From the IMG/VR virus record IMGVR_UViG_3300039251_000001, positions 1 to 24,508 of that record: a DNA stretch of 24,508 nucleotides; one strand, 5' to 3'. This DNA comes from a virus. The notes beneath the pieces were generated by a model. That model had not been told where the DNA came from and ran no database searches. It worked only from the letters and a program-made list of their open reading frames with translations. How positions within the stretch are numbered: the first letter of the stretch is position 1; every line of letters begins with the position of its first letter. Shown here piece after piece: positions 371 to 14,326 of this stretch. The position numbers and the translations under genes were made by a program.

Positions 371-1305
371 GACCGGAACCACGCCGCGCGGCGAGCGTAG
401 CGGTTGAGGATGCGCGCAGAGCGCGGGGTGAACGAGTCGGACACGGAGGTTGCACCGCCGAGAGGCGAGACACCACCCGAGCCGCTATCGCCCGAACGCG
501 CTGACATGTAACTTCGGACCGACTCAGTGATCGCCACGTCATGCAGGTCGGGGGGCGTGGAAAGGGCGTAGCCCGGCGTGAGGGATACCTGCACGGCGCC
601 GTACCACTCGGGCCACATCGGGTACTGCCCGGTCGAGATCGCTTTGAGACCAATGATCGGGAGGCCGCTCCGTCCCATGCCTGAGTAGGGGAGATAATCG
701 TTCCCCGACACCAGCGTCGTGTAGAGGTTCCCTTGGGTGTCGAGGATGGCAACGGAACTCACCGCTATCGCATCGTCGATGTAGAGCAGATCGCTTCCCC
801 CCGGATAGCCGGTGTAACGTCGGGACGTGGGGGCACCGGGCAGGATCGTGTAGCCGTCGGGCTGCGCTCGCATCGACGCGATCTCGGAGTTGATGCCGTC
901 GCAGGTGTCGATGATGTGGGTCGTGAGAGTGGCGTCGAACTTGGTATCCATGTTCGGTACGTCGCCCGACAAACGTTGCTTGACGTCTAGCAGGGAGCAG
1001 TAGCCCGCCGTCACGTTCAGGTTGTCCTCGAAGGTGGCGAGGGTTCCCGTGATCGTGAGAGTGCCCGACCAGACGGCGCTCCATACGCCCTGCATGGCGA
1101 CGGCCGGTACCGTCCAGGGGTAGTGATACTTTCCGAGCGAGTCGTGAATGATCGCAGGGGAGACGACCGGGAACCCGGATGCCAGGGCCCCGGTCGGATC
1201 GTGGACGGAAAGGCTCAGGCCGGCGGAGTCGGCCAGGGTATGGGTGCCGTCATATAGCACGGCACTCCACGTCCAGACCTGATTTTGTAGCGCCTGCCCA
1301 GGCAT
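367..1305 (-). CDS. head-tail connector (gp6-like adaptor) with N-terminal beta-sandwich-like extension
   Basis: 312 residues. Residues 1 to about 95 are beta-rich with many Ser/Thr/Val (VWTWSAVLYDGTHTLADSAG region) and look like an added sandwich domain. From about residue 103 (CSLLDVKQRLS) it resembles gp6/gp15-type connectors: a helical start, a strand-rich centre with VSGNDYLPY, then VQVSLTPGYA and a closing helix (AITESVRSYMSARSG). Such proteins form a ring under the portal and receive the tail. A strong ribosome binding site (GGAGG, 7 bases before the ATG) marks the start. The gene lies between the decoration-like genes and the gp10-like gene, as expected. The extension makes it longer than the usual 100-200 residue connectors. 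Confidence 0.7.
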   Translation of the reverse strand: MPGQALQNQVWTWSAVLYDGTHTLADSAGLSLSVHDPTGALASGFPVVSPAIIHDSLGKYHYPWTVPAVAMQGVWSAVWSGTLTITGTLATFEDNLNVTAGYCSLLDVKQRLSGDVPNMDTKFDATLTTHIIDTCDGINSEIASMRAQPDGYTILPGAPTSRRYTGYPGGSDLLYIDDAIAVSSVAILDTQGNLYTTLVSGNDYLPYSGMGRSGLPIIGLKAISTGQYPMWPEWYGAVQVSLTPGYALSTPPDLHDVAITESVRSYMSARSGDSGSGGVSPLGGATSVSDSFTPRSARILNRYARRAAWFRS

Positions 1306-1314
1306 CGCAGCCTC

Positions 1315-2346
1315 CTAACTGAGTCCGCACCAGACGGAGTTGACTCCGGGGGTGATGGTGGAAAGGTTGGCCGGGAGAGTTCCAGACGCATAGCCGGTCG
1401 CGTTGATGCCGGCCATGATCGGAGCGCCCGCGTTTAGCGAGCCGTCCGTTCTCGCCGTCATGCCCTTCAGGCTCGGGACCGCGACACTGGCAAGAGACGA
1501 GTAGGCCACGTAGTACAACCCCGAAGTGGTGATTGTGATGGGGCCGCCCGAGATGGCGAGCGTCTGGAGAGTGTTCGCGCCCCAGGCAGTGGTCGTCTGG
1601 TCGGCGGTCGAGCCGAGCAGTGAGGGCGACGTGGCGCTGAACGTGTACAGCCCGAAGGCCCAGTGGGTCGGAGAGCTTGCCGCTACGGTGGCGGACCAGA
1701 ATGAGATGTTGGTGACGACCGTGCCGCCGGGGATGTAGATGAGCTGGTTGAATATCTGCCCTGTCGTGGTGGCGATTATGTTGGCCTCAGGGCAGAGTTG
1801 CCGTGGAACGGTCTCAGCGACGAAGCCCGTCAGGCCGTACTGTGGCGCCCCGACGATCATGGCGTGCGTGTTGATGAGGTCCTGCTTGGTAATCCCCGAG
1901 CCGCTCAGGGTGTTGAACTCCGCGCCGGTAGTGGTTATGGTCGTGCCGACGCCCGAGCCGATCCGAAGACCGCTCTGTGGCAGTACGATGATGTCGAGGT
2001 TCTTGTTGGCTCCCAAAACGGCAGCCTTCAAGGCGGCCGACACGCCGGGGGTGACCCCGTGGAGTTCATTTATCTCGGCTGGAGTAGAGGTAATACCGCC
2101 GGACAGTACCAGGCCGGTGTTTGAGCCGACGAAGGTAGCCGTCGCGTCAACTACGGCGGCGCCAGAGGCATGGCCCGCGATGATCGTGCCGAACGCCCCG
2201 CGGGAAACGAGGACGCTCGTATTGCCCTGAGACAGCACGAGCATTGCCTCACTGTCAACGAAGATAGGCCCCGGCCCCGGATTAGCGGCGACCGGCAGTA
2301 CGCCTTCACCGATACCGATAGTTGCGGTGAGAACGGTATCTGGCAT
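1315..2346 (-). CDS. decoration/fibre-like structural protein, third of three tandem paralogues (with insertion)
   Basis: 343 residues from the ATG at 2346. That ATG is chosen because it overlaps the upstream stop as TAATG; a GTG 18 bases earlier is also open. The first 70 residues share the layout of the two upstream paralogues: an alternating TATIGIGEG start, VDSEAMLVLS, VLVSRGAFG and GHASGAAVV. The last 190 residues also match (GLYYVAYSSL, LKGMTARTDGSL, YASGTLP, final WCGLS). Between them is an insert of about 95 residues with two related motifs, TPAEINELHGVT and TGAEFNTLSGSG, a pattern I associate with phage fibre and capsid-decoration proteins. Placement among head genes suggests a virion surface protein. 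The exact role is unknown. Confidence 0.62.
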   Translation of the reverse strand: MPDTVLTATIGIGEGVLPVAANPGPGPIFVDSEAMLVLSQGNTSVLVSRGAFGTIIAGHASGAAVVDATATFVGSNTGLVLSGGITSTPAEINELHGVTPGVSAALKAAVLGANKNLDIIVLPQSGLRIGSGVGTTITTTGAEFNTLSGSGITKQDLINTHAMIVGAPQYGLTGFVAETVPRQLCPEANIIATTTGQIFNQLIYIPGGTVVTNISFWSATVAASSPTHWAFGLYTFSATSPSLLGSTADQTTTAWGANTLQTLAISGGPITITTSGLYYVAYSSLASVAVPSLKGMTARTDGSLNAGAPIMAGINATGYASGTLPANLSTITPGVNSVWCGLS

Positions 2347-3101
2347 TAGCTCAGCCCCGCCCACCAGCTCTTGGTGGTTGCGCCTGCGGCCACGGGAACG
2401 ATGGTGGCCGGAAGGGCGCCAGAGGCGTAGGTCGTGCTTGTGACGCCGTTGAGAGACGGGGCCGAGCCGGCGAGCGTGCCATCGGCGGCTCGGGCGACAC
2501 CCTTGAGAGTGGGGACGGTTGTGGCGACGCTGCCGATGGCGACGTAGTAGATGCCGCTATTCGCGACTATGTATGGCGTCGTCATGGCGAACTTGTAGAG
2601 GGTTTGAGCGGCCATCGCCGCCGTGAGCTGGTCAACGCTTGAGCAGCAGAGGTTGCCGAGGATGTCGTACAGCCCGATAGCAAAGTTGAGCGGCGTGCCC
2701 GCCTGCGTGGCAGAGACGCAGACCGAGATGTTGCTGACCGTCTGCCCGGCGCTGAGCCAGATGGCCTGACAGCCGATGTGGGTCGTGGTGCATACGACCG
2801 TCGCCGTCTCGGGGATCTGCTCTCGGGGGAGCGTCTCGGCGATATAGCCGGACGGCCCGAGGGTTTGCACGATGGGATATGGAGCGAGAGGCAGGACGGT
2901 CGCGCCGGAGGCGTGACCCGCCGACTGAGAGTTGAGCTGGCCCCGGACGACCTGCCAGAACGTGAGGCCGCCAGCGATGACGGTCATGATCTCAGAGTCC
3001 ACCTGGGCGTTGAATGGAACCACCCAGGGGCCGGGGACGTTGCCATTGACGGGGAGGAAGCCCTCGTCGTAACCGATTGCGGCGGTAAGTGCTACAGCCA
3101 T
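2346..3101 (-). CDS. decoration/fibre-like structural protein, second of three tandem paralogues
   Basis: 251 residues. The N-terminal part contains VDSEIMTVI, WQVVRGQ and GHASGATVL, a small beta domain seen repeatedly in phage virion proteins. The C-terminal part is a beta-rich sandwich-like domain with TVSNISVCVS, FAIGLYD, LYKFAMTTPY, GIYYVAIGS, LKGVARAADGTL and a final WWAGLS. It is clearly related along its whole length to the 252-residue protein just upstream (for example the shared TTAMAA/TAAMAA-LYK block and SNISVC). A good ribosome binding site (AGGAGAATGAG) precedes the ATG. The encoded protein is probably exposed on the capsid or neck. No catalytic motif is seen. Confidence 0.65.
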   Translation of the reverse strand: MAVALTAAIGYDEGFLPVNGNVPGPWVVPFNAQVDSEIMTVIAGGLTFWQVVRGQLNSQSAGHASGATVLPLAPYPIVQTLGPSGYIAETLPREQIPETATVVCTTTHIGCQAIWLSAGQTVSNISVCVSATQAGTPLNFAIGLYDILGNLCCSSVDQLTAAMAAQTLYKFAMTTPYIVANSGIYYVAIGSVATTVPTLKGVARAADGTLAGSAPSLNGVTSTTYASGALPATIVPVAAGATTKSWWAGLS

Positions 3102-3110
3102 CTCATTCTC

Positions 3111-3869
3111 CTAGCTGACCGCAGCCCAGAAACCACCGACCGTCTGAGCGCCAGCGGCCATCGGCGTGTACGGGCCCGTGAGTGGACCTGACACGTAGGT
3201 GACAGTCGAGACACCGAAGACCGGAGGGGTCGTGCCGTAGAGGACGCCGTTGGTCACGGCGGTCTGACCCTTGAGGGTCGGCTGACCGGATGAGGTCATG
3301 CTCCAGGCGATGTAGTACGCACCCGTCGTCGGGACGGTGTACGGCGTGGTCATGGCGATCTTATAGAGCGTGTTGGCCGCCATCGCGGTCGTGAGTTGGT
3401 CGGCGGAGGTGGCGAGCACGGCGCCGGTGAGGGAGCAGAGCCCGATCGCGGCGTGCGTCGGCGTGTTCGCAGCAGAAGTGGCGGTGCAGACCGAGATGTT
3501 GCTGACGGTGGTCCCGGCCCGAAGCCAGATCAGCATCAGAGAAACCTGGCCGGTCGTGCCCACGGCGTTGTTCGTTTCGGTGCAGACGTTCCGCGGAATA
3601 GTCTCAGCCAGGGTGCCCGTCGGACCCCAAACCGCATTGGCCGGGACGACGGCGTAAGGGCCTACCACCGCGCCGGCAGCATGGACGGCAGGCATCGAGC
3701 CCTGCTGGGCCCGCACCACCGACCAGCCGGTGCCACCGGCCGAGAGGACTTGAATGAACTCGCTGTCAATGACAACGAGGCAGGGAGCTCGCCACGGCAA
3801 CGGCAGATCGCCGCTGGTCGGGAGCACGCCATCGTTGTACCCGATGGCCGTGGTTAGAGTGATTGCCAT
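3111..3869 (-). CDS. decoration/fibre-like structural protein, first of three tandem paralogues
   Basis: 252 residues, starting at an ATG with an AGGAGAAACGCA leader. The N-terminal beta domain has IDSEFIQVLS, WSVVRAQQGS and VHAAGAVVG. The C-terminal domain has IWLRAGTTVSNISVCTA, HAAIGLCSLTG, TTAMAANTLYKIAMTTPY, GAYYIAWS and LKGQTAVTNGVL. Together with the next two genes it forms a triplet with the same domain order, so the set arose by gene duplication. Ser, Thr, Ala and Gly dominate, as in phage surface proteins. Capsid decoration, neck appendage or short fibre are all possible; position alone cannot separate them. Confidence 0.65.
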   Translation of the reverse strand: MAITLTTAIGYNDGVLPTSGDLPLPWRAPCLVVIDSEFIQVLSAGGTGWSVVRAQQGSMPAVHAAGAVVGPYAVVPANAVWGPTGTLAETIPRNVCTETNNAVGTTGQVSLMLIWLRAGTTVSNISVCTATSAANTPTHAAIGLCSLTGAVLATSADQLTTAMAANTLYKIAMTTPYTVPTTGAYYIAWSMTSSGQPTLKGQTAVTNGVLYGTTPPVFGVSTVTYVSGPLTGPYTPMAAGAQTVGGFWAAVS

Positions 3870-3884
3870 TGCGTTTCTCCTGTT

Positions 3885-3924
3885 CGGGTACCTTCACCCG
3901 CTGAGGGGAGTGGAAAGCTCCCTC
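3885..3924 (-). other. two small stem-loops in the intergenic leader
   Basis: In the 59-bp gap between two structural genes there is an imperfect stem (GAGGGGAG at 3903-3910 against CTCCCTC at 3918-3924) and a five-pair stem (CGGGT at 3885-3889 against ACCCG at 3896-3900). There is no U-run, so this is weak evidence for a terminator. It may only be local RNA structure before the start of the first triplet gene. Confidence 0.25.
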
Positions 3925-3928
3925 GCTG

Positions 3929-4813
3929 CTAGTTATGAAGTGGCAGCGCCGATAGCGTTGCCGTGACGATGATGTTGGTGGAGGAGCTGTAGCCGACCCG
4001 GAAGAACCGCCACGGGATGTAGTTGGGCGCACCTGGGCCAGTCAGCACGTATGTGGTAGTGACGGCAGTAGTGATCGTCAGCGCGGCCACCGCGAGCGTT
4101 TGAGGCGCGGCCATCGTGCCATAGGCGACGTTGTACCAGGTCGCCCCGTCCATGCTGCCTTGTAGGTTCGTCGAGACCGTGGGCGGGTTGGTACCGATGA
4201 CGGAGACGAGGGTGATCAGCCCGTGAGTCGGGATGTATTTGTTATCGAAGACGTCGCTGTTGAACGTCGTCTTCGAGAAGTGACCCGCCGTGGCGGAGCC
4301 TGGCACGGTGACGTTTGTACAGGCGCCGACGGTGAAGCTGCGCGGGTCGGGGATGGCGGTTACGGTATTGGCACCGTCGATTGTGCCGACTGCCGAACTC
4401 GCACCCGTGGCGACGATGGTCACGCTGTCACCGACCCGAAGGCCGTGGTTGACGCCGGTATAGAACGTCGCCGGGACGCCGGTAGTTGTAACCGGGACCG
4501 AGAGGATCGAGAACTCATACGCGCCCGCGGTAGCGGCCACGGTGACGTTGACCGGCATCGTGAACGTCGTCGGGCTGACAACCGTTACGACCTGCTGGGG
4601 GCTGGTTGTCAGGGCCGGGGTTGATCCGGTCGAGGCGGTCCAGAAGATCGTGTCGCCGCTATTGAGGCCGTGCGGGCAGAGCGTCGTGACAAGAGTCGGA
4701 TTAGCGGCAGAGGCCGACACGATTACGAGTGAGCCGCCGGGGTAGCACTGCCCGAGGTTGAACGTGCCCGGACCGACCAGGGGTGATACCGGGCTGGGAA
4801 GTGAACCGGGCAT
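3929..4813 (-). CDS. virion structural protein with two HGL-type repeats and a C-terminal beta domain
   Basis: 294 residues. Two units of about 65 residues repeat the pattern HGLxxGD, then a valine/threonine strand, a VTxVxxxTFT-like strand and a closing TAG: PHGLNSGDTIFW with VVSPTTFTMPV, and NHGLRVGDSVTI with VTAIPDPRSFTVG. This repeat is common in phage tail and neck proteins and looks like a small beta barrel. The remaining 100 residues hold a separate beta domain (NLQGSMDGATWYNVAYG and IPWRFFRVGYSSST). The ATG follows AAAGGAAAGG. It is the first gene after the capsid gene and its hairpin. A surface or decoration role is inferred; the ligand is unknown. Confidence 0.6.
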   Translation of the reverse strand: MPGSLPSPVSPLVGPGTFNLGQCYPGGSLVIVSASAANPTLVTTLCPHGLNSGDTIFWTASTGSTPALTTSPQQVVTVVSPTTFTMPVNVTVAATAGAYEFSILSVPVTTTGVPATFYTGVNHGLRVGDSVTIVATGASSAVGTIDGANTVTAIPDPRSFTVGACTNVTVPGSATAGHFSKTTFNSDVFDNKYIPTHGLITLVSVIGTNPPTVSTNLQGSMDGATWYNVAYGTMAAPQTLAVAALTITTAVTTTYVLTGPGAPNYIPWRFFRVGYSSSTNIIVTATLSALPLHN

Positions 4814-4836
4814 CTATTGACCTTTCCTTTGGAGTG

Positions 4837-4866
4837 CCCGGGGGCGGGTTATTCTCCGCCCCCGGG
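4837..4866 (-). terminator. strong stem-loop directly after the major capsid gene
   Basis: Eleven perfect base pairs, CCCGGGGGCGG at 4837-4847 against CCGCCCCCGGG at 4856-4866, enclose an 8-base loop. It begins 10 bases beyond the capsid stop codon and ends 24 bases before the next start codon. No U-run follows on the transcribed strand, so it may be an attenuator or a 3-prime mRNA-stabilising hairpin rather than a full terminator. Confidence 0.6.
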
Positions 4867-4875
4867 GCTTACGGA

Positions 4876-6483
4876 TTAGGACGCCTGAACCCCAACCAGG
4901 CACGCCGTGCCGGCGGGGAAGTAGCACTTGAGACACTCGCGCCCATACACGCCGAACTCCCAGCGTCGCTGAACGTTGGCCCAGTCGTAGCTCGTATACT
5001 CGCGGAGCACTTCGAGCTGGAACGGGGTCGGGACGTTGGTACGCGGGAAGGGCAGCCGCTCGGACAGAGCAACAACCGTGCCGGGGGCAAGATACGGATG
5101 GATCTCGATCGGGACGATCCGTGGGCTGGTGAACTTATTGCGGTAGCTGTCCGCAACGAGTCCGCCGGTCACGGCGCCGTCCGGACCGATCTGCTGGTTC
5201 CATCGGACGGTGCCAAGACCGACGCCGCCCTGCGTCAGGAGCTTGCCCATGGACTCGGCTTCCTGGCTGTTGACGATGATGCGCGTCGGACCGATGCGGG
5301 AGGTATCCCAGAGGGTCTTTAGCATCAGATCGATCTCGTTGATACCGTTGGCGTTGTCAGCGGTGAACTGAGCGCCGAGCATGTCGCGGTAATAGCCGCC
5401 GCCGAGGAAGAGCGAGCCCGCCGTCGCGTCGCGATACTGGCTGTTGGCATTGGCCTGGAACTGCGGGATCATGCCGTCAAAGGACAGCGCGTCGCCCGTC
5501 AGGTCGTTAGTATTGGGGACGTTGCCCGCGACGGGGAGCGCCGCGAGGATGACCGGCGTGCCGTAGGTCGCGACCGGATAAGTAGCCGGAGCGCCGACGA
5601 ACGTGGCATAGCCGGCGGCCGTAACGATCGAGATGCGGGTTGCGGTGGTGGTGAAGGCGTAGTAGCGCGTGCCGCCACTGGTGCCGATGAAGACGTTGTA
5701 GGCGACTGCGCCGCGAGTGGCGTAGCCGGTGAGGAGCCAGGAAGTGACGCCACCTCCAGAGGTGTGCGTCGCCACCAGAACCTGGCCCTGCGTCTCATCA
5801 GGGGAGTCGGCCGTGCCGTGTCCGGTGGCGCCGTTTAGGTAGCCGTACTGAGTCAGTGCGGTCACAGAGACGTCGAAGGGGGTGGCTGCGGTCAGGGGAC
5901 CGACGACTGCACCGGGCACGTCGGTTATGTTCGCGGATACGAAGGCCGGGGGACCGAGGGCCGTAGTGTTGCCACCGAGGATGAGCTTCTCTTCCTCGAC
6001 CATGACCGCGGCGAGCAGGTTTGCCGTCGCCTCGGCACGAAGGTCCATGAAGCCCTGAGCGGTGTCCTGGGCGTCGTACGTCACGAAGTCGTCCAGGCCG
6101 AAGGACTTGAAGGCTTGCGTCCGGTCACGCTCGGACGAGCTGATAACCGCGTTGCGCAGTCCGTCAGCCACGCCAGCTTTGAGGCCGGAGACATTGATAC
6201 CGGTGATGGCTCGCCACTGGACAGCCGAGGCGCCATTCGGGGCACCGTGGCGGCTCATCCAATTGCGGATTGGGGACAGGACGGGGAACAGGTTCTTGGC
6301 GGGGCTTTCGAGCAGGAGGCCGACCGCACCTGTGGCAATCGACCAGCCCTGTGTCGTGGCCTTCGCCAAGACGTCAGGATCGCCGGGGACGCCGCGACCG
6401 GACGATAGAGCCGCCTTGACCGCATCGATGGTCCGCTGGCTCACGTCCGGGCCGGTCGGCTGGCCCGGGTAGGTATCAGGCAT
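4876..6483 (-). CDS. major capsid protein, HK97 fold with an inserted Ig/FN3-like domain
   Basis: 535 residues, longer than the usual 300-400. Residues 45-175 carry the N-arm and early core (SPIRNWMSRHG, AVQWRAITGIN, the helix DLRAEATANLLAAVMVEEEKLIL). Residues 330-510 carry the rest of the core (GGGYYRDMLG, INEIDLMLKTLWD, PTRIIVNSQEAESM, FTSPRIVPIEIHPYLAPGTV, LREYTSYDWANVQRRWEFGVYG). Between about 178 and 325 is a Thr/Ala/Gly-rich beta insert with GAVAYNVFIGTSGGTRYY. An insert here is known in relatives of this capsid type and probably projects from the shell. The C-terminus holds Cys 517, 520 and 528. Position after the protease/scaffold gene and two flanking hairpins support the call. Confidence 0.88.
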   Translation of the reverse strand: MPDTYPGQPTGPDVSQRTIDAVKAALSSGRGVPGDPDVLAKATTQGWSIATGAVGLLLESPAKNLFPVLSPIRNWMSRHGAPNGASAVQWRAITGINVSGLKAGVADGLRNAVISSSERDRTQAFKSFGLDDFVTYDAQDTAQGFMDLRAEATANLLAAVMVEEEKLILGGNTTALGPPAFVSANITDVPGAVVGPLTAATPFDVSVTALTQYGYLNGATGHGTADSPDETQGQVLVATHTSGGGVTSWLLTGYATRGAVAYNVFIGTSGGTRYYAFTTTATRISIVTAAGYATFVGAPATYPVATYGTPVILAALPVAGNVPNTNDLTGDALSFDGMIPQFQANANSQYRDATAGSLFLGGGYYRDMLGAQFTADNANGINEIDLMLKTLWDTSRIGPTRIIVNSQEAESMGKLLTQGGVGLGTVRWNQQIGPDGAVTGGLVADSYRNKFTSPRIVPIEIHPYLAPGTVVALSERLPFPRTNVPTPFQLEVLREYTSYDWANVQRRWEFGVYGRECLKCYFPAGTACLVGVQAS

Positions 6484-6517
6484 TCGAGGTTTACTCCAGC
6501 GGTATGGAGGGACCGAT

Positions 6518-6544
6518 CCCTACGGCAACCGCATTCCCGTAGGG
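6518..6544 (-). promoter_or_regulatory. stem-loop in the leader of the major capsid gene
   Basis: Eight perfect pairs (CCCTACGG at 6518-6525 with CCGTAGGG at 6537-6544) enclose an 11-base loop. The hairpin fills the gap between the protease-scaffold stop and the capsid start, ending 34 bases before the capsid ATG. No U-run follows, so processing or protection of the capsid mRNA is more likely than termination. The RBS (GGAGTAAACC) lies between hairpin and ATG. Confidence 0.55.
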
Positions 6545-6550
6545 CGGGGC

Positions 6551-8155
6551 TTATCGCATGAGAGCAGCGATGCCCTCTTGTGCGGAAATCTTGCCGAGCG
6601 CCTCACGCTCGGCGGAACCCACGGGGAAGCGTTCGGCGGCCTTGGCGAGGATCTTCTCTTCAACCGAGGCATCGTTGGCGCCACCGCGGGACGGGGCCGA
6701 TAGGGGACCGCCACCAGCCGGCATCTTCTCGACCTTTGCGAGCCTGGCGCCTAGATCGCTCAGGATCTCAGCCTTTGCCGAGTCAAGCTGCTTTGCGAGC
6801 GGACCACCGATATCGGAGCGGATGCGACTGATGAGAGCGTCGAAGGCGGTCTCTTCCGACTTCGCCATGCTCTCGGGATTGACGACGATGGGAGCTGCGA
6901 TGGAGGGATCGAGCGGCGTGCCAGTCGCCTGCTTGGCAAGGCACTTCTGCGAGCCCAGGGCCACCGCTGAGTCATGGATGCTATCGATGATGCCGGCGTC
7001 GGCCGAGCTGTTACGGGCGCCCACCTTGGCGAGCGGCTTGACAGCCACCTTCGCAGCCCGCCGGATCGTCTGCGCCATCTTCGCCAGCTTGATCGTCTTG
7101 CGGGCAGTCCGGGCGGACTTGCGGAGTGCGCTCCGCTGCGACTTGACGGCCTTGCGCTCAGCTTTCTTGGCGAGCTTATCCGCGTCGTCTCCGTCATCGT
7201 CGGGCGGATTGGCGGCGGCATCTACGGCATCGTGCGCCTCGCCGAGAACGTCTGCCACGTCGGAGTGGGCAGTGCCCACGGTGTCGATGGCGGCGTGCGC
7301 GTCGGCGGGCCTGAACTTCTTCTTCGTGAGCGCGGCGGCTTTCTTCTGGAGCTTGGCGGTGCGGATCTGGCGCTTCGCAAGCTTGGTCGCAGCTTTGGTG
7401 CATTTATTGCACTTGCCGCACTTGCCGTCGGCGCATGCCTTACCGAAGGGCGGAGCGGCGCCGGGGAAGGCTGCCTTTGAGAGCTTCTTAGCCACTACGG
7501 GCTCCTGCTGTTCTGGAGCCAATGGTGTCCCCTTAGCTCCGGTGTAGGTCTGGGCGGCCTCCGCGACCGCCGTAGTCGTGTCGGCCACGGTTGACTCCTT
7601 TCTCTTTGCGAGTACGTACATCTCACGGTCTGCCTTCGCCAGCAGAGCGTCGGGGTTGGCGGGGCGGTCGCACAACGACAGTTCGTTGATCACCGCCTTG
7701 ACGATGTGGCGGACCTTGCCGGTGGCGGTATCGACCCACGGGCCGACCCACTTCGCCCCGCCCCAGCTCACGCCCTTGTAGGTGTTGGTCTTTACCTTCG
7801 TGATCGCTACCGGATCAACGACGTGGAGGTCGGCCTCGATCTTGCGGGCGTCGTCGTCGAAGGTGGCCTTAAGCACCGTGCCCGACGCCTTGGAGTCGTG
7901 CATCTCTCGCAGGTTTGCGCCAGACGCCATGAAGTCGGTGATGGCCGCCTTCATGGGCTCGTAGTCGGCAATCTCCCTTTCGCTGTCCGGCGCCTCTGAG
8001 GTCGTGTTGGTATGGACTAGGATCGTACCGTCAGGCAGCTCTACGATGCCGCTGATGGGCGTCCAGATATCCACACCCGGCGGCGGGTCCGGGGCGACCA
8101 CGGTTTCTGTGGCTTTGGCGAGCGCGTCGATGTTGCGCTGCTTACGTGTACTCAT
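6551..8155 (-). CDS. capsid maturation protease (XkdF-like) fused to a scaffold-like C-terminal region
   Basis: 534 residues. Residues 30-175 match the XkdF-type prohead protease pattern: SGIVELPDG, a probable catalytic His86 in LREMHDSKASG, VVDPVAITKV, a probable catalytic Ser130 in YKGVSWGGA, and the typical ELSLCDRPANP at 158-167. Residues 240-252 hold four cysteines spaced C-x4-C-x2-C-x2-C. Residues 250-400 are rich in Lys and Ala (KLAKR, KKAAALTKKK) and charged helices. Residues 430-534 look like a coiled coil (FDALISRIRSDIGGPLAKQL, ILSDLGARLAKVEK). Protease plus scaffold in one chain would let the enzyme enter the prohead and digest its own scaffold. The gene lies directly before the capsid gene, as usual. 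The start follows the stop of a decayed short frame by an ATGA overlap. Confidence 0.75.
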   Translation of the reverse strand: MSTRKQRNIDALAKATETVVAPDPPPGVDIWTPISGIVELPDGTILVHTNTTSEAPDSEREIADYEPMKAAITDFMASGANLREMHDSKASGTVLKATFDDDARKIEADLHVVDPVAITKVKTNTYKGVSWGGAKWVGPWVDTATGKVRHIVKAVINELSLCDRPANPDALLAKADREMYVLAKRKESTVADTTTAVAEAAQTYTGAKGTPLAPEQQEPVVAKKLSKAAFPGAAPPFGKACADGKCGKCNKCTKAATKLAKRQIRTAKLQKKAAALTKKKFRPADAHAAIDTVGTAHSDVADVLGEAHDAVDAAANPPDDDGDDADKLAKKAERKAVKSQRSALRKSARTARKTIKLAKMAQTIRRAAKVAVKPLAKVGARNSSADAGIIDSIHDSAVALGSQKCLAKQATGTPLDPSIAAPIVVNPESMAKSEETAFDALISRIRSDIGGPLAKQLDSAKAEILSDLGARLAKVEKMPAGGGPLSAPSRGGANDASVEEKILAKAAERFPVGSAEREALGKISAQEGIAALMR

Positions 8156-8187: not shown

Positions 8188-8325
8188 GGCCACTTGCGCT
8201 GTGCGTAAGTCGTGATACTATCTAGTGCATGACTGGCGAGATAGTGTCACAAACTGAACAGCGAGCGTGACCGCGATGGTGGCCTTGCCTCTAAGCGCAG
8301 TGCTACGCTGCTTACGTGTGCTCAT
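8152..8325 (-). pseudogene. decayed tandem duplicate of the 46-residue upstream gene
   Basis: A 58-codon frame starts at the ATG at 8325 with MSTRKQR, identical to the first seven residues of the protease, and ends with QVAIIRYEGRVAIR, nearly the end of the 46-residue upstream protein (RVVIRSEGRVAIR). A single in-frame TAG at codon 36 interrupts it. Its start overlaps the stop of the 46-residue gene and its final stop overlaps the protease start, both as ATGA. It therefore keeps the junctions of a real gene but not an open frame. A 35-residue product could still be made, or the TAG could be read through. Decay after duplication is the simplest reading. Confidence 0.6.
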
Positions 8326-8357
8326 CGGATCGCCACTCTTCCCTCGGAGCGAATGAC
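8306..8357 (-). repeat. direct repeat, copy 2 (end of 46-residue gene)
   Basis: Partner of 8136-8187. It spans the last codons of the 46-residue gene and the start of the decayed frame. Copy and partner differ at about five of 52 positions. Confidence 0.85.
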
Positions 8358-8462
8358 GACGCGGGTGACCCCGTAGCGCCAGAGCCGTTCCAGCTCGGTT
8401 ACGCGCGCCTCGGCATCTGCCCAGACGATGCGCGGCACCCTGAACTGTGTCCGTTTACTCAT
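8322..8462 (-). CDS. 46-residue basic protein of unknown function
   Basis: The frame encodes MSKRTQFRVPRIVWAD, then AEARVTELERLWRYGVTRVVIR and EGRVAIR. A good ribosome binding site (GAGGG, 7 bases before the ATG) supports the start, which lies inside the end of the MuF-like gene with an 8-base overlap. The middle is a likely helix and the end a beta strand. It is basic and small enough to be a nucleic-acid or scaffold partner, but I recognise no family. Its stop overlaps the next frame as ATGA. A decayed second copy follows it. Confidence 0.6.
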   Translation of the reverse strand: MSKRTQFRVPRIVWADAEARVTELERLWRYGVTRVVIRSEGRVAIR

Positions 8463-9216
8463 GGTCGATCCCTCGGCTCTGGGCTTCTTCATCACTGATC
8501 GCGGAGGCGACGCGCGAACAGTTGGGGTGCTCGCTGTCATTGGCTTCGTAGTAATCGACGCTCCACACCTGACCGTCCGCGTCCGCGCAAGCTTGGTCGA
8601 AGTAGGTTCCGTCGCTGATCTCAACGTAGTTCACATCTGTCTCACGGAACCCGGCGATATCTCCGTTGGCAGCAGCCTGCTGTGTCTCGGTACGGGCGAT
8701 CATCTCGGCCCGGTAGTCGGACATGTTGGCGAAGTTGTCTTTGAGAGCGTCGGCCAAGTCGTCCAGCGAGGCGTCTGGGTCTGCCATCGTGGCGGCTACC
8801 AGTTCGCCCACCGTCTCGCGCGTGGTGGCGTCGATGCCGTCGATGAGCTGGCCGGCATAGGGCAGCGCCCAGTCGGAGGCCCTATCGAGAGCAACGGCGA
8901 AGTCCGCCACCGGATCGGCCCCGGTTACGGCGATGAAGCCGTGCGCACTGATCGTCGCCAGCAGCTTCGCCGTGGGCGCCGTCAGGGTATCGATGTCGCC
9001 CCAGTTGGTAATGATCGGCACCGATCCGGCTACGCCCTCGATCGACCCAGCCACGAGGTTGCCCTGCTGTCGGAACCAGACGGCCCAGACTTGGGCGAGT
9101 TCGTCTCGGGCCTTCTGCTGGCCGGGGAGCAGCGGGCGCTCCGGCTCTGTTATCGGGTTGGCCTTGCTCATCCGCCAGAGATCCACGAGTCGCAGGAAGT
9201 CAGGCACGGTGATCAT
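8455..9216 (-). CDS. MuF-like (SPP1 gp7-like) minor head protein
   Basis: 253 residues. The N-terminal two thirds are helical (QQKARDELAQVWAVWFRQQG and a middle helix DDLADALKDNFANM). Then comes the MuF signature: a helix RAEMIARTETQQAANGD, with AGFRETDVNYVEISDG, and the closing HPNCSRVASAI. In the family this domain acts in head assembly and is carried inside the head next to the portal. The usual Cys pair is partly kept (QACADADG and HPNC). The gene follows the portal by two small genes. The ATG has no clear Shine-Dalgarno but lies 3 bases after the preceding stop, so coupling is likely. No toxin domain is attached. Confidence 0.75.
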   Translation of the reverse strand: MITVPDFLRLVDLWRMSKANPITEPERPLLPGQQKARDELAQVWAVWFRQQGNLVAGSIEGVAGSVPIITNWGDIDTLTAPTAKLLATISAHGFIAVTGADPVADFAVALDRASDWALPYAGQLIDGIDATTRETVGELVAATMADPDASLDDLADALKDNFANMSDYRAEMIARTETQQAAANGDIAGFRETDVNYVEISDGTYFDQACADADGQVWSVDYYEANDSEHPNCSRVASAISDEEAQSRGIDHE

Positions 9217-9219
9217 GTC

Positions 9220-9714
9220 TTAGAGGGTCAATTGCATGATGTAGCCGCCATTCCACGCGATCGTGAACGATCCGAGGGTGACCGATTGTGTACCGCCGTA
9301 GTAGTTGAAACAAATCCCCTGATCGGTCACGCCTGCCGGGGAGGTCGCGGTGTGGTCGTAGACGTGGCAACCGAAGACGGCCAGCAGCGTCGTTACGCTG
9401 TTCGCGCTCGCCGTGTTCGCTGCGCCGTACGAGTAGACGTTGGATGCGAAGGTGGAGGTTATGGTACCGAGCGGACGCCCGAGCCACGGCCAGCCCGCCG
9501 GTGTGGACGAGCCGGTGTCCACGACGTTCGGGGCGCTGCCGCCGGTCCACACGCCCGCGGCGTAGGCGCTGTTGGCAGCGGTGACTGTCTGGTCCGGCGT
9601 CATGGTGCCGTACTGCGCCACTTCGATGGTGTCGGAGAGGAGGTTGAAACCCTTGACGTTATTGAACGATGTCGTCGGGAAGGCCGTAAAGATTTTCGAG
9701 TTGCTCCAGGCCAC
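9220..9714 (-). CDS. conserved-type virion structural protein of unknown role
   Basis: 164 residues, starting at a GTG preceded by a strong AAAGGAGC site. The frame begins MAWSNSKIFTAF, continues with SDTIEVAQYG near residue 27 and ends with DQGICFNYYGGTQSVT, SFTIAWNGGYIMQLTL. Beta strands rich in Thr, Ser, Ala and aromatic residues dominate and no enzyme motif is present. I recognise this pattern from head regions of tailed phages, where it appears as an uncharacterised structural protein. It lies between the zinc-ribbon-like and MuF-like genes. A head decoration or head-fibre role is a guess. Confidence 0.55.
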   Translation of the reverse strand: MAWSNSKIFTAFPTTSFNNVKGFNLLSDTIEVAQYGTMTPDQTVTAANSAYAAGVWTGGSAPNVVDTGSSTPAGWPWLGRPLGTITSTFASNVYSYGAANTASANSVTTLLAVFGCHVYDHTATSPAGVTDQGICFNYYGGTQSVTLGSFTIAWNGGYIMQLTL

Positions 9715-9717
9715 AAC

Positions 9718-10110
9718 TTAGCTCCTTTGGCTTGCGGAGCCGGTGCCAGTGGCAGTCCCGGCGCCTATGACGTGTGAGCGCGTTACCCCGAGGGCTTCGC
9801 CCGATCCGTGCGCTGTGGGCGCGAACACCAGAAGGTCGTTCCCCTCGTCTCGGACGGTTTCGACGTTCATCACCGGGCGGCCATTCCCATCGAGGGTCGT
9901 ATAGCCAGCGTCCTCGCTTTCGTAGTCCTCGCGCTCGTGCACGACTACCTTCGCCTTCGTTCCCCACGGGATCATCGGTGCGGTCAGCATCCGGAGTTTC
10001 GGGCAGGTGTGGAAGCGCGTATGTGGGCCGCCGACGGAAGGGATGATCTCCTCCCGCTTGCAGTTGGGGCAGTACCACTTTTCGATTAGACTGAGAACGG
10101 TCCCGGTCAT
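9718..10110 (-). CDS. zinc-ribbon-like small head-region protein
   Basis: 130 residues. The first 40 residues carry WYCPNCKREE and HTRFHTCPKLR, giving Cys14, Cys17, His32/35 and Cys37 as likely zinc ligands. Then follow MLTAPMIPWGTKAKVVVHEREDY, a short segment GNGRPVMNVETVRDEGNDLLVFAPTA, and a Gly/Thr-rich tail. Similar short proteins with this CPNC start occur next to portal genes in tailed phages; their function is not established. The ATG overlaps the portal stop as ATGA, so it is translated in step with the portal. Confidence 0.6.
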   Translation of the reverse strand: MTGTVLSLIEKWYCPNCKREEIIPSVGGPHTRFHTCPKLRMLTAPMIPWGTKAKVVVHEREDYESEDAGYTTLDGNGRPVMNVETVRDEGNDLLVFAPTAHGSGEALGVTRSHVIGAGTATGTGSASQRS

Positions 10111-12416
10111 GCGCTACTCCTCTCGAGGTCGGACACCGCCTTCGCCAGCGGCTCAGCATGCTCAGGCGCGACCACCTTGATCGTTCGCGCCAGACGTAGC
10201 AGCTCCGTCGCTACGGGGTCAGGGGCACCGGCGAACGCGCGGTGCACGTCTGGGATCGTCCGTGCACCGCATAGCGCCGCCGAAACGCGCTCCTGAGTAG
10301 GAAGTGGGATAACGGCGCTGCTGAACGGCACCGCTGCGCTCTTGCCGAGCCGCAGGGCCGTGCGGGCCTTGCGCTCCCAGCGGGCTAGATCGGCCTTGGC
10401 GGCCGGCTCTTGGTACTTCGGAGACTGCATCTCCACGATGGCCGCGTGCACCGTGTCTACATCTTCGGCTGCGACAGTGCCGATGTAGGCTGGCAGCTTC
10501 TTCACGCCCTGCTCTTCGGCGGCCGCATACCGCTTGTTGCCGTTGGCGACGGCGAGCTCGCCGGGAAACTCCACGAGCACGAGCGGATCGATGGGCGCGT
10601 CGGCCTGCATCGCGAGACCGATGGCGTCGATGATCTTGCGGCTCTTGCCGTCGCCAGCCTCACCGTGCATGTCAGCGACCTTCACGCCATCGTCAAAGCG
10701 CCACACCAGCTTGGAAACCCAGTTCGTGAGCTTGGCCGGGTACTGGTGGGACAGGTCGGCCTGCACCACCTTGACCAGCTCGACCTGGGATAGATCGCTC
10801 TTGGCGAGCTTCGTAGAGGGCGCGCCGGGCGAGTCACTGGTCGCCACGCCAGGTTCGGCGGACGGCGCGGGAGGAGCGGCGCGGCTGGTGGGTGCGGGGC
10901 TAGGAGCGCCGAACGGCGGAGTGCCAGGCGGTGGCCCCTTGAGAAAGTCGGATACGAGCACGACTTGGCCCTGACCGGTGACGATCGTAGCCTCGAGACC
11001 GGGGCCGTCAATCTTGTAGCGGTTCTCGGCGAGCCAATCCGTAGAGACCACGCCCTTCTTCCACGCGAGGTCATCCACCGTTGCCTGTGCAACCTGGTCC
11101 TCTTCGGGCACGAGATCCGTGAAGATAAACTCCAACTGAGGATCCCAATACGTCGCGAGGATGCGATCGAGCACCGCCCACTTGATATGATTGGCCAGGG
11201 CAACATCGCGCTCCTGAGAGGCGGTGGATTGCGTTCCGGCGGCCGTCTTACTGCCGCCCAATCCACCAGACGGTCCGCGGACAAAGCCCATCTCAATCGG
11301 ACTCTGGCCGTAGGCGGCGCAGCCGATGTGCAGTAGCCACTCCTCAGCCGTGATATCCGGCGTGGCGTTGATATGCTCGACGCCGCTGTTCGGGCCGCCC
11401 GGAATCGGCATGAGTCGCGAGCGGGCCACGTCATTGCCGGCGAACATGGAGTTGACGGCGGCGAGGAAGTCCAGTCCCTGCTGAGTCGTCCATGACTCGG
11501 GGAACTTGACGAAGGCCGCGGGGATCGTGCCCTCGGTGAACAACGAGAGGTCGAGGCTCTGGCGTCGCAGCGCGCGGTTGACCGAGAGGATGATCCACTC
11601 AGCCGGCGGATGCCCGTAGGGGCCCTGGCGGAGCCAACGCGGCTGCCAGAGGATCTCGTCGCTTCCGAACCACGTCCAGTTCATGCCCTTGATAACCTGG
11701 GCGAAGGCCGGCGCGCAGCCGCACACCGCGCAGAACATGCCCGATGCGAGCGAACCCTGCCAGTCGTGTAGATGACGTTCGGTATCAGGCGGAACCAGCG
11801 GTCGGCGACCCCAGAGGTCGATCACCGGTCGGAACGTCTGCCCGTCCGGGATCTCCGCGGCGTACAACTTGCCCGCCCGGTTGGGATGCAGATAGACCGT
11901 GCCGCAATCGCCCTTCCACAGATCGCGCATGTACTTGCCGATCCACGCGGACCACGGGTTGATCTGATCGGGTGTCAGGAAAAAGCCCGTAGCCTCGGCG
12001 ATCGCATCTTCGTACTTGGCCTGTCGAACGAGCGCATCCTTGCGGTTCTGCCCTTCGATGGCACGCGGCCGGATCTCCCACGGGTGCTTGATGAAGTCAT
12101 CGATCCGCTTCTCGATGCAGAGCCCCGCTACGTCCCAGTTGTCCGCGAGCGAGAACAGCGTCGTGTAGTCGAACGTCTCGTATGAGCGCGGCCGGATGCC
12201 GATGTTGTAGCCGGGCGTGTAATCCCAGAGTCGCGGGAACTGCTCTTCGGGGTGCGCCGGCCCGATCGGGATACCGGGGCCAAGAGACGTTATGGCATTC
12301 GGTCCGCCAAGGGTGACGGCGAGCCCGGAGAGGTCGGTCGATTGGCGCGCCATCGCGGCGAGCGGGTCGTTGGCCTGCTTCGCGAGCCGTTTTATCTCGA
12401 AGCCTAAGAGCTTCAC
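10107..12416 (-). CDS. portal protein with inserted CxxC cluster and C-terminal ParB-like domain
   Basis: 769 residues from a GTG (RBS AGGGAG). Residues 60-480 form the portal core (NIGIRPRSYETFDYTTLFSLADNWDV start, DEILWQPRWLRQGPYGHPPAEW, EHINATPDITAEEWLLHI, GQSPIEMGF). Portal subunits form the 12-fold ring through which DNA enters the head. An unusual insert at about 213-236 has HLHDW and CAVCGC (Cys229, 232, 234), which looks metal-binding. Residues 505-540 are a Pro/Ala linker. Residues 595-665 match a ParB N-terminal fold: IDPLVLVEF, a GxxR-type box in NGNKRYAAAEEQG, and LPAYIG. The last 90 residues (LARWERKARTALRLGK to PFSSAVIP) resemble a tail found on many phage portal and MuF proteins. 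Activity of the ParB-like part is unknown. Confidence 0.85.
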   Translation of the reverse strand: MKLLGFEIKRLAKQANDPLAAMARQSTDLSGLAVTLGGPNAITSLGPGIPIGPAHPEEQFPRLWDYTPGYNIGIRPRSYETFDYTTLFSLADNWDVAGLCIEKRIDDFIKHPWEIRPRAIEGQNRKDALVRQAKYEDAIAEATGFFLTPDQINPWSAWIGKYMRDLWKGDCGTVYLHPNRAGKLYAAEIPDGQTFRPVIDLWGRRPLVPPDTERHLHDWQGSLASGMFCAVCGCAPAFAQVIKGMNWTWFGSDEILWQPRWLRQGPYGHPPAEWIILSVNRALRRQSLDLSLFTEGTIPAAFVKFPESWTTQQGLDFLAAVNSMFAGNDVARSRLMPIPGGPNSGVEHINATPDITAEEWLLHIGCAAYGQSPIEMGFVRGPSGGLGGSKTAAGTQSTASQERDVALANHIKWAVLDRILATYWDPQLEFIFTDLVPEEDQVAQATVDDLAWKKGVVSTDWLAENRYKIDGPGLEATIVTGQGQVVLVSDFLKGPPPGTPPFGAPSPAPTSRAAPPAPSAEPGVATSDSPGAPSTKLAKSDLSQVELVKVVQADLSHQYPAKLTNWVSKLVWRFDDGVKVADMHGEAGDGKSRKIIDAIGLAMQADAPIDPLVLVEFPGELAVANGNKRYAAAEEQGVKKLPAYIGTVAAEDVDTVHAAIVEMQSPKYQEPAAKADLARWERKARTALRLGKSAAVPFSSAVIPLPTQERVSAALCGARTIPDVHRAFAGAPDPVATELLRLARTIKVVAPEHAEPLAKAVSDLERSSA

Positions 12417-12516: not shown

Positions 12517-12663
12517 TCATGAGAGTTTCTCTAGCCGATCGGTCATCGTGCGCCACAAGATCGTGTGTAACCAGTCAGGCATCCACCAAGGCCGGGAAAC
12601 GATTACGCGCCACTGCTCGGATCTATCGGCGGGGCCGCAGAACAAATCCCAATGCTTCCTCAT
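12517..12663 (-). CDS. 48-residue aromatic-rich protein of unknown function
   Basis: The frame encodes MRKHWDLFCGPADRSEQW, then RVIVSRPWWMPDWLHTILWRTMTDRLEKLS. Six tryptophans in 48 residues are unusual. The ATG overlaps the large terminase stop as ATGA, which supports translation. No transmembrane segment or known motif is clear; the WWMPDWL part may form an amphipathic helix. The roughly 100 bases between it and the portal hold only the portal ribosome binding site and a ten-codon frame that I do not call. Confidence 0.5.
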   Translation of the reverse strand: MRKHWDLFCGPADRSEQWRVIVSRPWWMPDWLHTILWRTMTDRLEKLS

Positions 12664-14000
12664 GCCACCGCTCTCCCTGCCAGGACAGCACGATACAGCC
12701 CGAGGATGCCGGGCTCGCCTAACATCAGTTCCGTGAGCGCCCATACAAGCGCATCGAGACGATCCGGGGACTCGCCCTCATCGGGAACCCACGTGCAACA
12801 CTGGTCCTCTAGTGTCGGCAGCGGCCCCACGTGAATTACTCGGTGTTGCTCGTATAATTGCGAGATGGGTTCGGCACGGGTGCGCTTGCCACGCGACGCC
12901 GTAACGCCCCTGACGGCGACAGAGACCGGAGCGCCAACATTCCGACGCCGTTCCAGCTCATTCTCCAACACGAGCTTGCACATATCGCCGCCGTTGTTCG
13001 TCTCGACGATGATGGCTTCGGCCCTCATCTCATCCGCAAGTTCAACAGCGCGACGCGCCCAACCATCGGGGGTATAGCGTCCCGAGGCATCGGCGAGAAC
13101 GTACCCCTTGCGATCGGCCCCCTTGCCGGCCGCGATTATCCCAGTCTCATCGCTCGCCTCGCCACTCGTAACGGCGGGATCGATACCGACGACAATGCGC
13201 ACCAGATCGGGCGGTTGGTTGTACTCGAAGTAACTGTGACGCCAGAGCGCGCCCTCCATCTCTTCGATGAGTTCGCCGCCGAGCTCCTGGCGGCCGAGCT
13301 GTGTGCCGCCATACTTCTCATACAACTCCGCGATAAAGTCGGCGTCGAGGTTCGCCACATTATCGATGGTGCGCAGTAGTGACTTGTGCACGCTGTCGTC
13401 GGACATGAGCGAGCGTACCAGCGGATGGCCGGCTTTCGGCGTGCCCGTGGCGACGATACGAGCCGGCGCCAGGCGCACGGCGTAGCGGATCGACTCATTC
13501 CACGCCTGCTGCCAGCGCCGCCACAACCCCACCTCGTCAGCCCACAGGCCGCGGAGGTTCTTGCCCTGAATGGTGGGCGCGCCGTCATCCGCGCCGTCGC
13601 CGTAGATTATCGAGCCGTTGCGAAGGCGCAATATCGCCGTGCTGAGATTGTAACTCTCCACGAGCTGGCTAGCACCGCGCTTGATATCACCGAGGTTCGT
13701 ACCGAAGGCGCGTATCAAGCCCGAGCGAGGCCCCTCGAAGCAGACGGTACGCACGGCCTCGAAGGTGGGCGCCACCACGCCGTACTCGCCGGGCTCGGCG
13801 CGGGCCATCTCGGCGAGGATGTTGGCACCCGTCCAAGTCTTCCCCGATCCCCGACCGCCGCGGACGTACCACGTGCGCCACTCATCGGGCGGGAGCTGAC
13901 TGGGCCGCGCCAGCTCGCGCCAGGAGAGCGGCGCCGTCTTTCGGCGGGCCTTCGCTAGCGCCGCCGCCGTAATGGCGATGGTGTCGGCGTAGGTCATCAT
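12660..14000 (-). CDS. terL: terminase large subunit
   Basis: 446 residues, starting at the ATG at 14000 that overlaps the upstream stop as ATGA. The ATPase half has a Walker A motif GGRGSGKT at residues 48-55, a Walker B motif LWADE at 152-156 and a coupling motif ATGTP at 184-188. The nuclease half has the RNase H-like acidic set: Asp274 in GIDPAVT, Glu333 in VETNNGGD and Asp416 in SPDRLDALVWAL. The protein powers DNA packaging through the portal and cuts the concatemer. Length is typical for the family. It follows the small subunit with one small gene between them. Confidence 0.93.
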   Translation of the reverse strand: MMTYADTIAITAAALAKARRKTAPLSWRELARPSQLPPDEWRTWYVRGGRGSGKTWTGANILAEMARAEPGEYGVVAPTFEAVRTVCFEGPRSGLIRAFGTNLGDIKRGASQLVESYNLSTAILRLRNGSIIYGDGADDGAPTIQGKNLRGLWADEVGLWRRWQQAWNESIRYAVRLAPARIVATGTPKAGHPLVRSLMSDDSVHKSLLRTIDNVANLDADFIAELYEKYGGTQLGRQELGGELIEEMEGALWRHSYFEYNQPPDLVRIVVGIDPAVTSGEASDETGIIAAGKGADRKGYVLADASGRYTPDGWARRAVELADEMRAEAIIVETNNGGDMCKLVLENELERRRNVGAPVSVAVRGVTASRGKRTRAEPISQLYEQHRVIHVGPLPTLEDQCCTWVPDEGESPDRLDALVWALTELMLGEPGILGLYRAVLAGRAVA

Positions 14001-14326
14001 CGGGGCACCTGGTAGTCGCAGCCATGATCGCAAGGCTTCCCGTAGGGGTAGTCCCGGCACATGGCGGGCCGCGACTCGTACTGAACGCACAGCCGAGTCC
14101 GCTCGTCGAAGTAGCGGCAGCTGTAAGTGTGGCCCACTTCCTCGGGTGGCTCCAAGCAGTCGTAACCCCGGCGCATCGCTGCCGCGTCGGCTGTCAACGG
14201 CAGTACCATCTGACGAATGTACTGCCCCTCTATGATGTGACTCATTCTCGGTGGTGTCATCTCATCGGGGGTAAACGGCAGGTAGAACGCCTCACAACAG
14301 TACCCAGGGCACGTCCGTGGGGTCAT
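13997..14326 (-). CDS. YkgJ-type cysteine-cluster protein
   Basis: 109 residues with cysteines at 6, 10, 11, 57, 70, 80, 90, 99 and 103. The pattern YSCRYFDERTRLCVQYE, RPAMCRDYPYGKPC is the signature of YkgJ-family proteins, thought to bind zinc or an iron-sulphur cluster; their biochemical role is unclear. ATGA overlaps at both ends tie it to the two terminase genes. The location between the subunits suggests a link to packaging or nuclease control, but this is only inferred from position. Confidence 0.75.
   Translation of the reverse strand: MTPRTCPGYCCEAFYLPFTPDEMTPPRMSHIIEGQYIRQMVLPLTADAAAMRRGYDCLEPPEEVGHTYSCRYFDERTRLCVQYESRPAMCRDYPYGKPCDHGCDYQVPR

Follow-up and report, generated by a model that had tools for sequence, protein, structure and literature searches.

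The portal gene and its layout

The window, as we call the whole analysed stretch of 24,508 nucleotides (IMG/VR virus record IMGVR_UViG_3300039251_000001, positions 1 to 24,508), a virus contig from an uncultured soil phage, carries on its minus strand a gene at 10107..12416 that begins with GTG and encodes a protein of 769 aa. The protein was identified as a portal by the PHROGs profile phrog_2662 (E 9e-22, portal residues 59-461), by tblastn similarity to the portals of the Arthrobacter phages Sonali (E 5e-48) and Mufasa8 (E 1e-51) and by its neighbourhood, since the large terminase gene (12660-14090) adjoins it; the fusion of a ParB-like segment to a true portal, as proposed in the first-pass annotation, is thereby confirmed. 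Near-identical copies of the window are present in other metagenomes (L002-L006).

The aligned portal core covers residues 45-470 (11007..12284, on the minus strand like all other parts of this gene) and was the basis for the segment identities. It is followed by a linker (residues 471-545, 10782..11006) that is Pro/Ala-rich in sequence, with P and A making up 45% of residues 490-540, and then by an N-arm of 28 conserved residues (546-573, 10698..10781; YPxK...W...W.YD), which was delimited by our family alignment A5 and the segment identities and which travels with the next element, the ParB/Srx-fold domain (residues about 572-665, 10422..10703). Behind the domain come a conserved helical tail (residues 673-735, 10212..10400; DLxRWERKAxxALRxGKxAxVxFxSxxIP), which is also found in portals without ParB, and a 34-residue extension that ends the protein. 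Given this order, the domain is internal: a C-terminal placement, as first proposed, does not hold, because 104 portal residues lie downstream, the conserved RWERK tail among them. The Pro/Ala linker described earlier is real, but the domain does not follow it directly, the N-arm lying in between.

A separate MuF-like minor head protein is encoded at 8455..9216 (minus strand; Pfam MuF 0.002, second half of phrog_2662 2.6e-17), and its N-terminus resembles the portal/MuF junction of two related loci, L007 and L008. In the window, the portal and MuF genes are separated by two small genes (9220-10110), one of 130 aa with a CxxC zinc-ribbon-like motif and one of 164 aa; at this place the portal/MuF junction of L007 and L008 is an overlap. 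Three adjacent minus-strand ORFs of the window (1315-2364, 2346-3101 and 3111-3869) look by eye like tandem paralogues, and the two of them that were searched in Pfam gave no match.

A ParB/Srx fold inside the portal

Searched alone, the window domain matched Pfam ParB_N with an E value of 0.0072, below the curated cut-off (profile positions 37-92 of 95), and phmmer related it to KorB (0.0096) and Noc (0.034). A 7-row profile of the family, searched against solved structures, matched Noc (4.5e-7), KorB (4.6e-6) and SerK, a kinase of free serine (0.0025), and aligned GNKR with the GxxR boxes of Noc (GERR) and KorB (GARR). Nine of 11 family members matched ParB_N in Pfam (best 4e-5) and four of the 11 matched DUF1015; PHROGs recognised the portal and not the ParB/Srx domain. 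The reported similarity to a ParB N-terminal domain is thus real, but the matched Pfam positions belong to the second half of the profile and not, as had been stated, to the first.

AlphaFold was run on the 11-row alignment A5 and yielded a model with a mean pLDDT of 85 and a pTM of 0.66; the model from the single sequence (pLDDT 39) was useless and was discarded. With this model, Foldseek retrieved ParB-CDP (8e-6) and sulfiredoxin (TM 0.71 on target), and the top match in VIA-align was sulfiredoxin (Z 10.3, rmsd 2.0 A, 87/89 residues; model residues 33-126, portal residues 572-665), with further matches to Noc (Z 9.7), ParB-CDP (8.9), PadC (8.4) and SerK (7.8). Nearly all of the best 32 VIA-align rows were ParB, Noc, KorB, PadC, sulfiredoxin, SerK or SbnI. 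By this model the window portal domain has the alpha+beta ParB/Srx fold, which the first-pass annotation had suggested looking for in a predicted structure. Chance similarity, with no ParB/Srx domain present at all, could be argued from the single-sequence Pfam score and the poor single-sequence model; it is largely refuted by the profile match to Noc, the pLDDT of the alignment-based model and the composition of the best 32 rows, and we give it almost no credit. Sulfiredoxin (PDB 6ky4, 3cyi), the closest fold match, differs in that its catalytic Cys lies in GCHR, whereas neither GNKR of the window nor the DGxHR of its relatives contains a Cys.

The earlier coordinates (10422-10634, minus strand, for portal residues 595-665) were exact, and IDPLVLVEF was correctly located, at residues 609-617. 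The end of the domain at 665 also stands, but its start does not, the fold beginning at about residue 572, so that the earlier span misses the first strand and the Box I loop. In the model, strand 81-86 ends at the GNKR box and helix 88-97 starts within it, right after the strand and the Gly. Such a junction from strand to helix is the usual site of the phosphate-binding GxxR. GNKR (residues 626-629, 10530..10541) thus takes the place of the GxxR box (P motif, Box II) in the profile alignments and in the ligand-free model alike, as had been claimed.

A ParB-type CTP clamp loading on phage DNA, for partition or for packaging, would agree with Noc and KorB as top sequence matches, with the location of the GxxR box in the same place as in these CTPases and with the resemblance of G-x-K-R-Y to the ParB motif GERRYRA. 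However, the Box II Glu of GERR is replaced in GNKR, AIVEMQSPK stands where Box III has ENxQR, the domain is fused to a portal, no helix-turn-helix after the domain was matched by Pfam at the sequence level, and no second ParB_N match was found elsewhere within the window. The helices after the domain were considered as the ParB helix-turn-helix and, at the sequence level, rejected, since they form the portal tail that also occurs where ParB is absent. We regard a clamp as very improbable; the domain is very probably not a partition ParB, and the ParB-like DNA-binding role proposed at first is not supported. Structural matches of the tail were weak (best Z 4.5) and little informative.

No match to the window domain or the L008 domain was found by tblastn among cultured phages, the L018 domain gave weak matches there (E 0.01-0.9), mostly to annotated ParB-like proteins, a plasmid search with the domain gave no match, and PADLOC did not match the window domain.

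Relatives of the domain and an exchangeable slot

The N-arm and the domain were found together in 11 further non-identical portals, giving 12 in all with that of the window. The carriers are L007, L008, L012, L013, L014, L016, L017, L018, L023 and L083 from IMG/VR and L024 from a Chloroflexota MAG, among which L012, L013 and L023 are mutually close; all recovered genes of the domain family are portals. The MAG that contains L024 suggests, but is no proof, that the hosts are Chloroflexota.

The usual form of the family reads MARRPGGRNEDKV...ASMDPIVLADFGEPKLRIADGFHRTLG...VPAFIG...MQDDS. Most carriers have DGxHRT (e.g. DGFHR in L016 and DGNHR in L012), and NGNKRY is confined to the window and its nearest relative, L007, where the upstream RRPGGRN is also replaced (GEAGDGKS in the window, GEAGDGKS or SEGGDGKS over the two portals). 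The G and R of the box are invariant in the 11-row family alignment. The Asp and His that SerK and Tox-ParB have in DGxHR, probably catalytic, are present in the other members and have been lost from the window and L007, with G and R retained. The possibility that the NGNKR form was taken up independently from a cellular ParB, considered in view of the ParB-like G-x-K-R-Y, was rejected because the N-arm is common to both forms and a profile made from DGxHR members only matched the window domain with an E value of 2e-13, 200 shuffles giving no better than 6. Rough dN/dS values by the Nei-Gojobori method were 0.33 for the window and L007 and 0.08-0.57 for other pairs, which indicates that the domain is maintained; the N-arm and domain evolve under purifying selection.

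Segment identities differ strongly along the protein. Among the window, L007 and L008, the portal cores show 78-84% identity (L007-L008 84%, window-L007 78%), whereas the ParB domains are 67% identical between the window and L007, 24% between the window and L008 and 27% between L007 and L008. The N-arm behaves like the domain, with 71% versus 32-36% identity, and the tail has a different pattern again, being 82% identical between L007 and L008 and 44-45% between the window and either of them. The L008 domain shares 45-57% identity with domains from other portals, although the cores of these portals match the L008 core at only 39-50%. From these discordant identities of core, arm and domain it follows that the N-arm and the ParB/Srx domain move together as one cassette.

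Other domains occupy the same position in related portals. A NUDIX domain lies in this slot in the cultured Arthrobacter phages Mufasa8 (1.6e-19) and Sonali (3.7e-20), followed by the tail and MuF, and a 2H phosphoesterase (PF13563) lies between linker and tail in L053 (5e-10; the same protein as L026, with weak Acb1 similarity of 0.002) and L065 (7e-8) by Pfam. The slot is empty in L054, L055, L059, L060, L062, L068 and L069 and in the Chloroflexota loci L028 and L037, and no insert of such a kind was found in the portals of THSA-485A, Polewnik and MMB025. A profile search of 400 Chloroflexota genomes retrieved portals with only the tail in common, and a scan of viral contigs by the tail retrieved more tail-bearing portals. 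As read from these alignments, the layout is core, Pro/Ala linker, N-arm plus ParB/Srx, RWERK tail and MuF, the last either fused or in a neighbouring gene, and the slot is exchangeable, holding ParB/Srx, NUDIX, 2H phosphoesterase or nothing. The exchangeable slot with NUDIX or 2H in relatives, and the status of the window copy as a divergent GNKR form, had been missed in the first-pass annotation.

According to the main rival of the cargo or effector reading set out below, the domain is a portal-resident nucleotide switch that stays on the crown, where NTP binding gates packaging, head filling or DNA retention, and is never delivered. Covalent fusion to the portal core, the purifying selection on N-arm and domain, and the existence of known NTP switches among ParB-fold proteins (PMC12704722) would all fit. 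It would be unexpected, however, for a needed gating part to be missing from portals of the same type or to be substituted by unrelated NUDIX or 2H domains, and the domain has been swapped for a diverged version beside a nearly unchanged core; we therefore consider a resident switch possible but rather unlikely. A catalytically dead remnant or spacer, in which the NGNKR form is inactive and merely joins linker and tail, is suggested by the loss of Asp, His and the RRPGG motif in the window and L007. It is doubtful in view of the dN/dS of 0.33 and the retention of the box Gly and Arg, the fold and the N-arm, and a spacer is unneeded since the portals of other phages manage without any insert.

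Several further arrangements were noted among these loci. L065 encodes a 1962-residue portal polyprotein (1269-7154) with a 2H phosphoesterase before the tail and NUDIX after it. In L061 (1-1665) the RWERK tail ends a MuF-type protein instead of a portal, so the tail itself seems mobile between head proteins. The Mufasa8 portal (L070, 2134-5136) is labelled MutT/NUDIX hydrolase in its RefSeq copy, NC_049478, a name apparently owed to the NUDIX insert, and the NUDIX part of this portal is matched by the PADLOC model PDC-S07.

Possible roles of the slot domain

Fusions of PBECR, 2H and InPase to portal or MuF proteins (PMC5512222) and of NUDIX and 2H (PMC9503650) have been published, and portal-fused 2H, NUDIX and InPase have been read as injected effectors, their presence in the virion and delivery to the host being deduced there from the attachment to head proteins. 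The window portal is alike in bearing a domain of the nucleotide- or RNA-processing kind on a head protein of a terminase-portal phage, and shares with the NUDIX and 2H portals the slot between linker and tail, but its occupant is different, being ParB/Srx. DdrB-like ParB domains (phage P1 DdrB; PMC5512222) likewise belong to the ParB/Srx superfamily in phages and are tied to virion packaging; unlike the portal-borne window domain they occur in large polyvalent proteins or alone, and Pfam gave no DdrB-type match to the window domain at E up to 1. Tox-ParB, SerK and DUF1015 proteins (DGHHR; PMC3482391; PDB 5x0e) have the DGxHR that most members of our family share, and the window differs from them by NGNKR and by its portal context.

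No portal-ParB/Srx fusion was found in the literature text searched, which does not prove absence, and a survey from 2025 that covers the ParB-CTPase fold (PMC12704722) does not mention portal, capsid, MuF or terminase in its main text.

The reading we prefer, with about even confidence, is that the domain is a swappable, virion-carried, nucleotide-handling cargo or effector held in a portal slot inside the head. Since portal subunits direct their C-terminal regions towards the interior of the head, at most 12 copies of the domain would be suspended there by flexible linkers; the C-terminal barrel of the P22 portal putatively extends inward (PMC4992974). A nucleotide would be bound via the GxxR box, and the target of the domain would be nucleotides themselves or something that nucleotides control, reached either after delivery with the DNA or at the moment of ejection. 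Cleavage of the linker might free the domain for delivery, which is a guess. As a common theme, nucleotide handling is drawn from three domain types, and the small size of the sample may account for part of it.

Motif conservation suggests that the DGxHR relatives are metal- and phosphate-handling enzymes of the SerK/Tox-ParB type. The window copy is probably a nucleotide/phosphate (NTP) binder rather than a phosphotransferase, as its Asp and His are replaced, and with these conserved residues gone and RRPGGRN changed to GEAGDGKS its activity could have been lost. Members of the fold bind CTP, ATP or GTP with a specificity not predictable from sequence, and ParB-fold proteins with the GxxR Arg changed to Ala have been used as controls that do not bind (PMC12704722). 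A bolder proposal, which we consider unlikely, is that many soil-phage portals have a dedicated in-head cargo slot with interchangeable enzymes neutralising host nucleotide signals, that ParB/Srx is an NTP binder or enzyme carried in the virion against host defence and not recognised before, and that NGNKR is a second active-site type for a different ligand.

Portals are usually seen as purely mechanical DNA channels. The swapping of unrelated nucleotide-handling domains beside a near-constant core suggests that cargo is carried, or a signal sensed, at the DNA exit site, the portal-fused ParB/Srx domain places the ParB fold in a further setting, and a slot with ParB, NUDIX and 2H versions offers a compact, testable system.

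The portal/MuF junctions of L007 and L008 have features of their own. The heptamer CCCTTTA (8310-8316 in L007, 8274-8280 in L008), read as C_CCT_TTA in the portal frame, is a canonical -1 slippery heptamer that occurs once per locus at this junction, with the MuF frame at -1; the candidate shift would join portal, ParB and MuF in one protein, with a match to the N-terminus of the separate MuF protein of the window. In L007 the MuF protein (8301-9821) is split by an intein-like insert that starts with AVFAGS and ends with VVSN before a Cys; Pfam Intein_splicing matched the insert with an E value of 0.01, and the flanks without it match HPNCGRSAS of L008.
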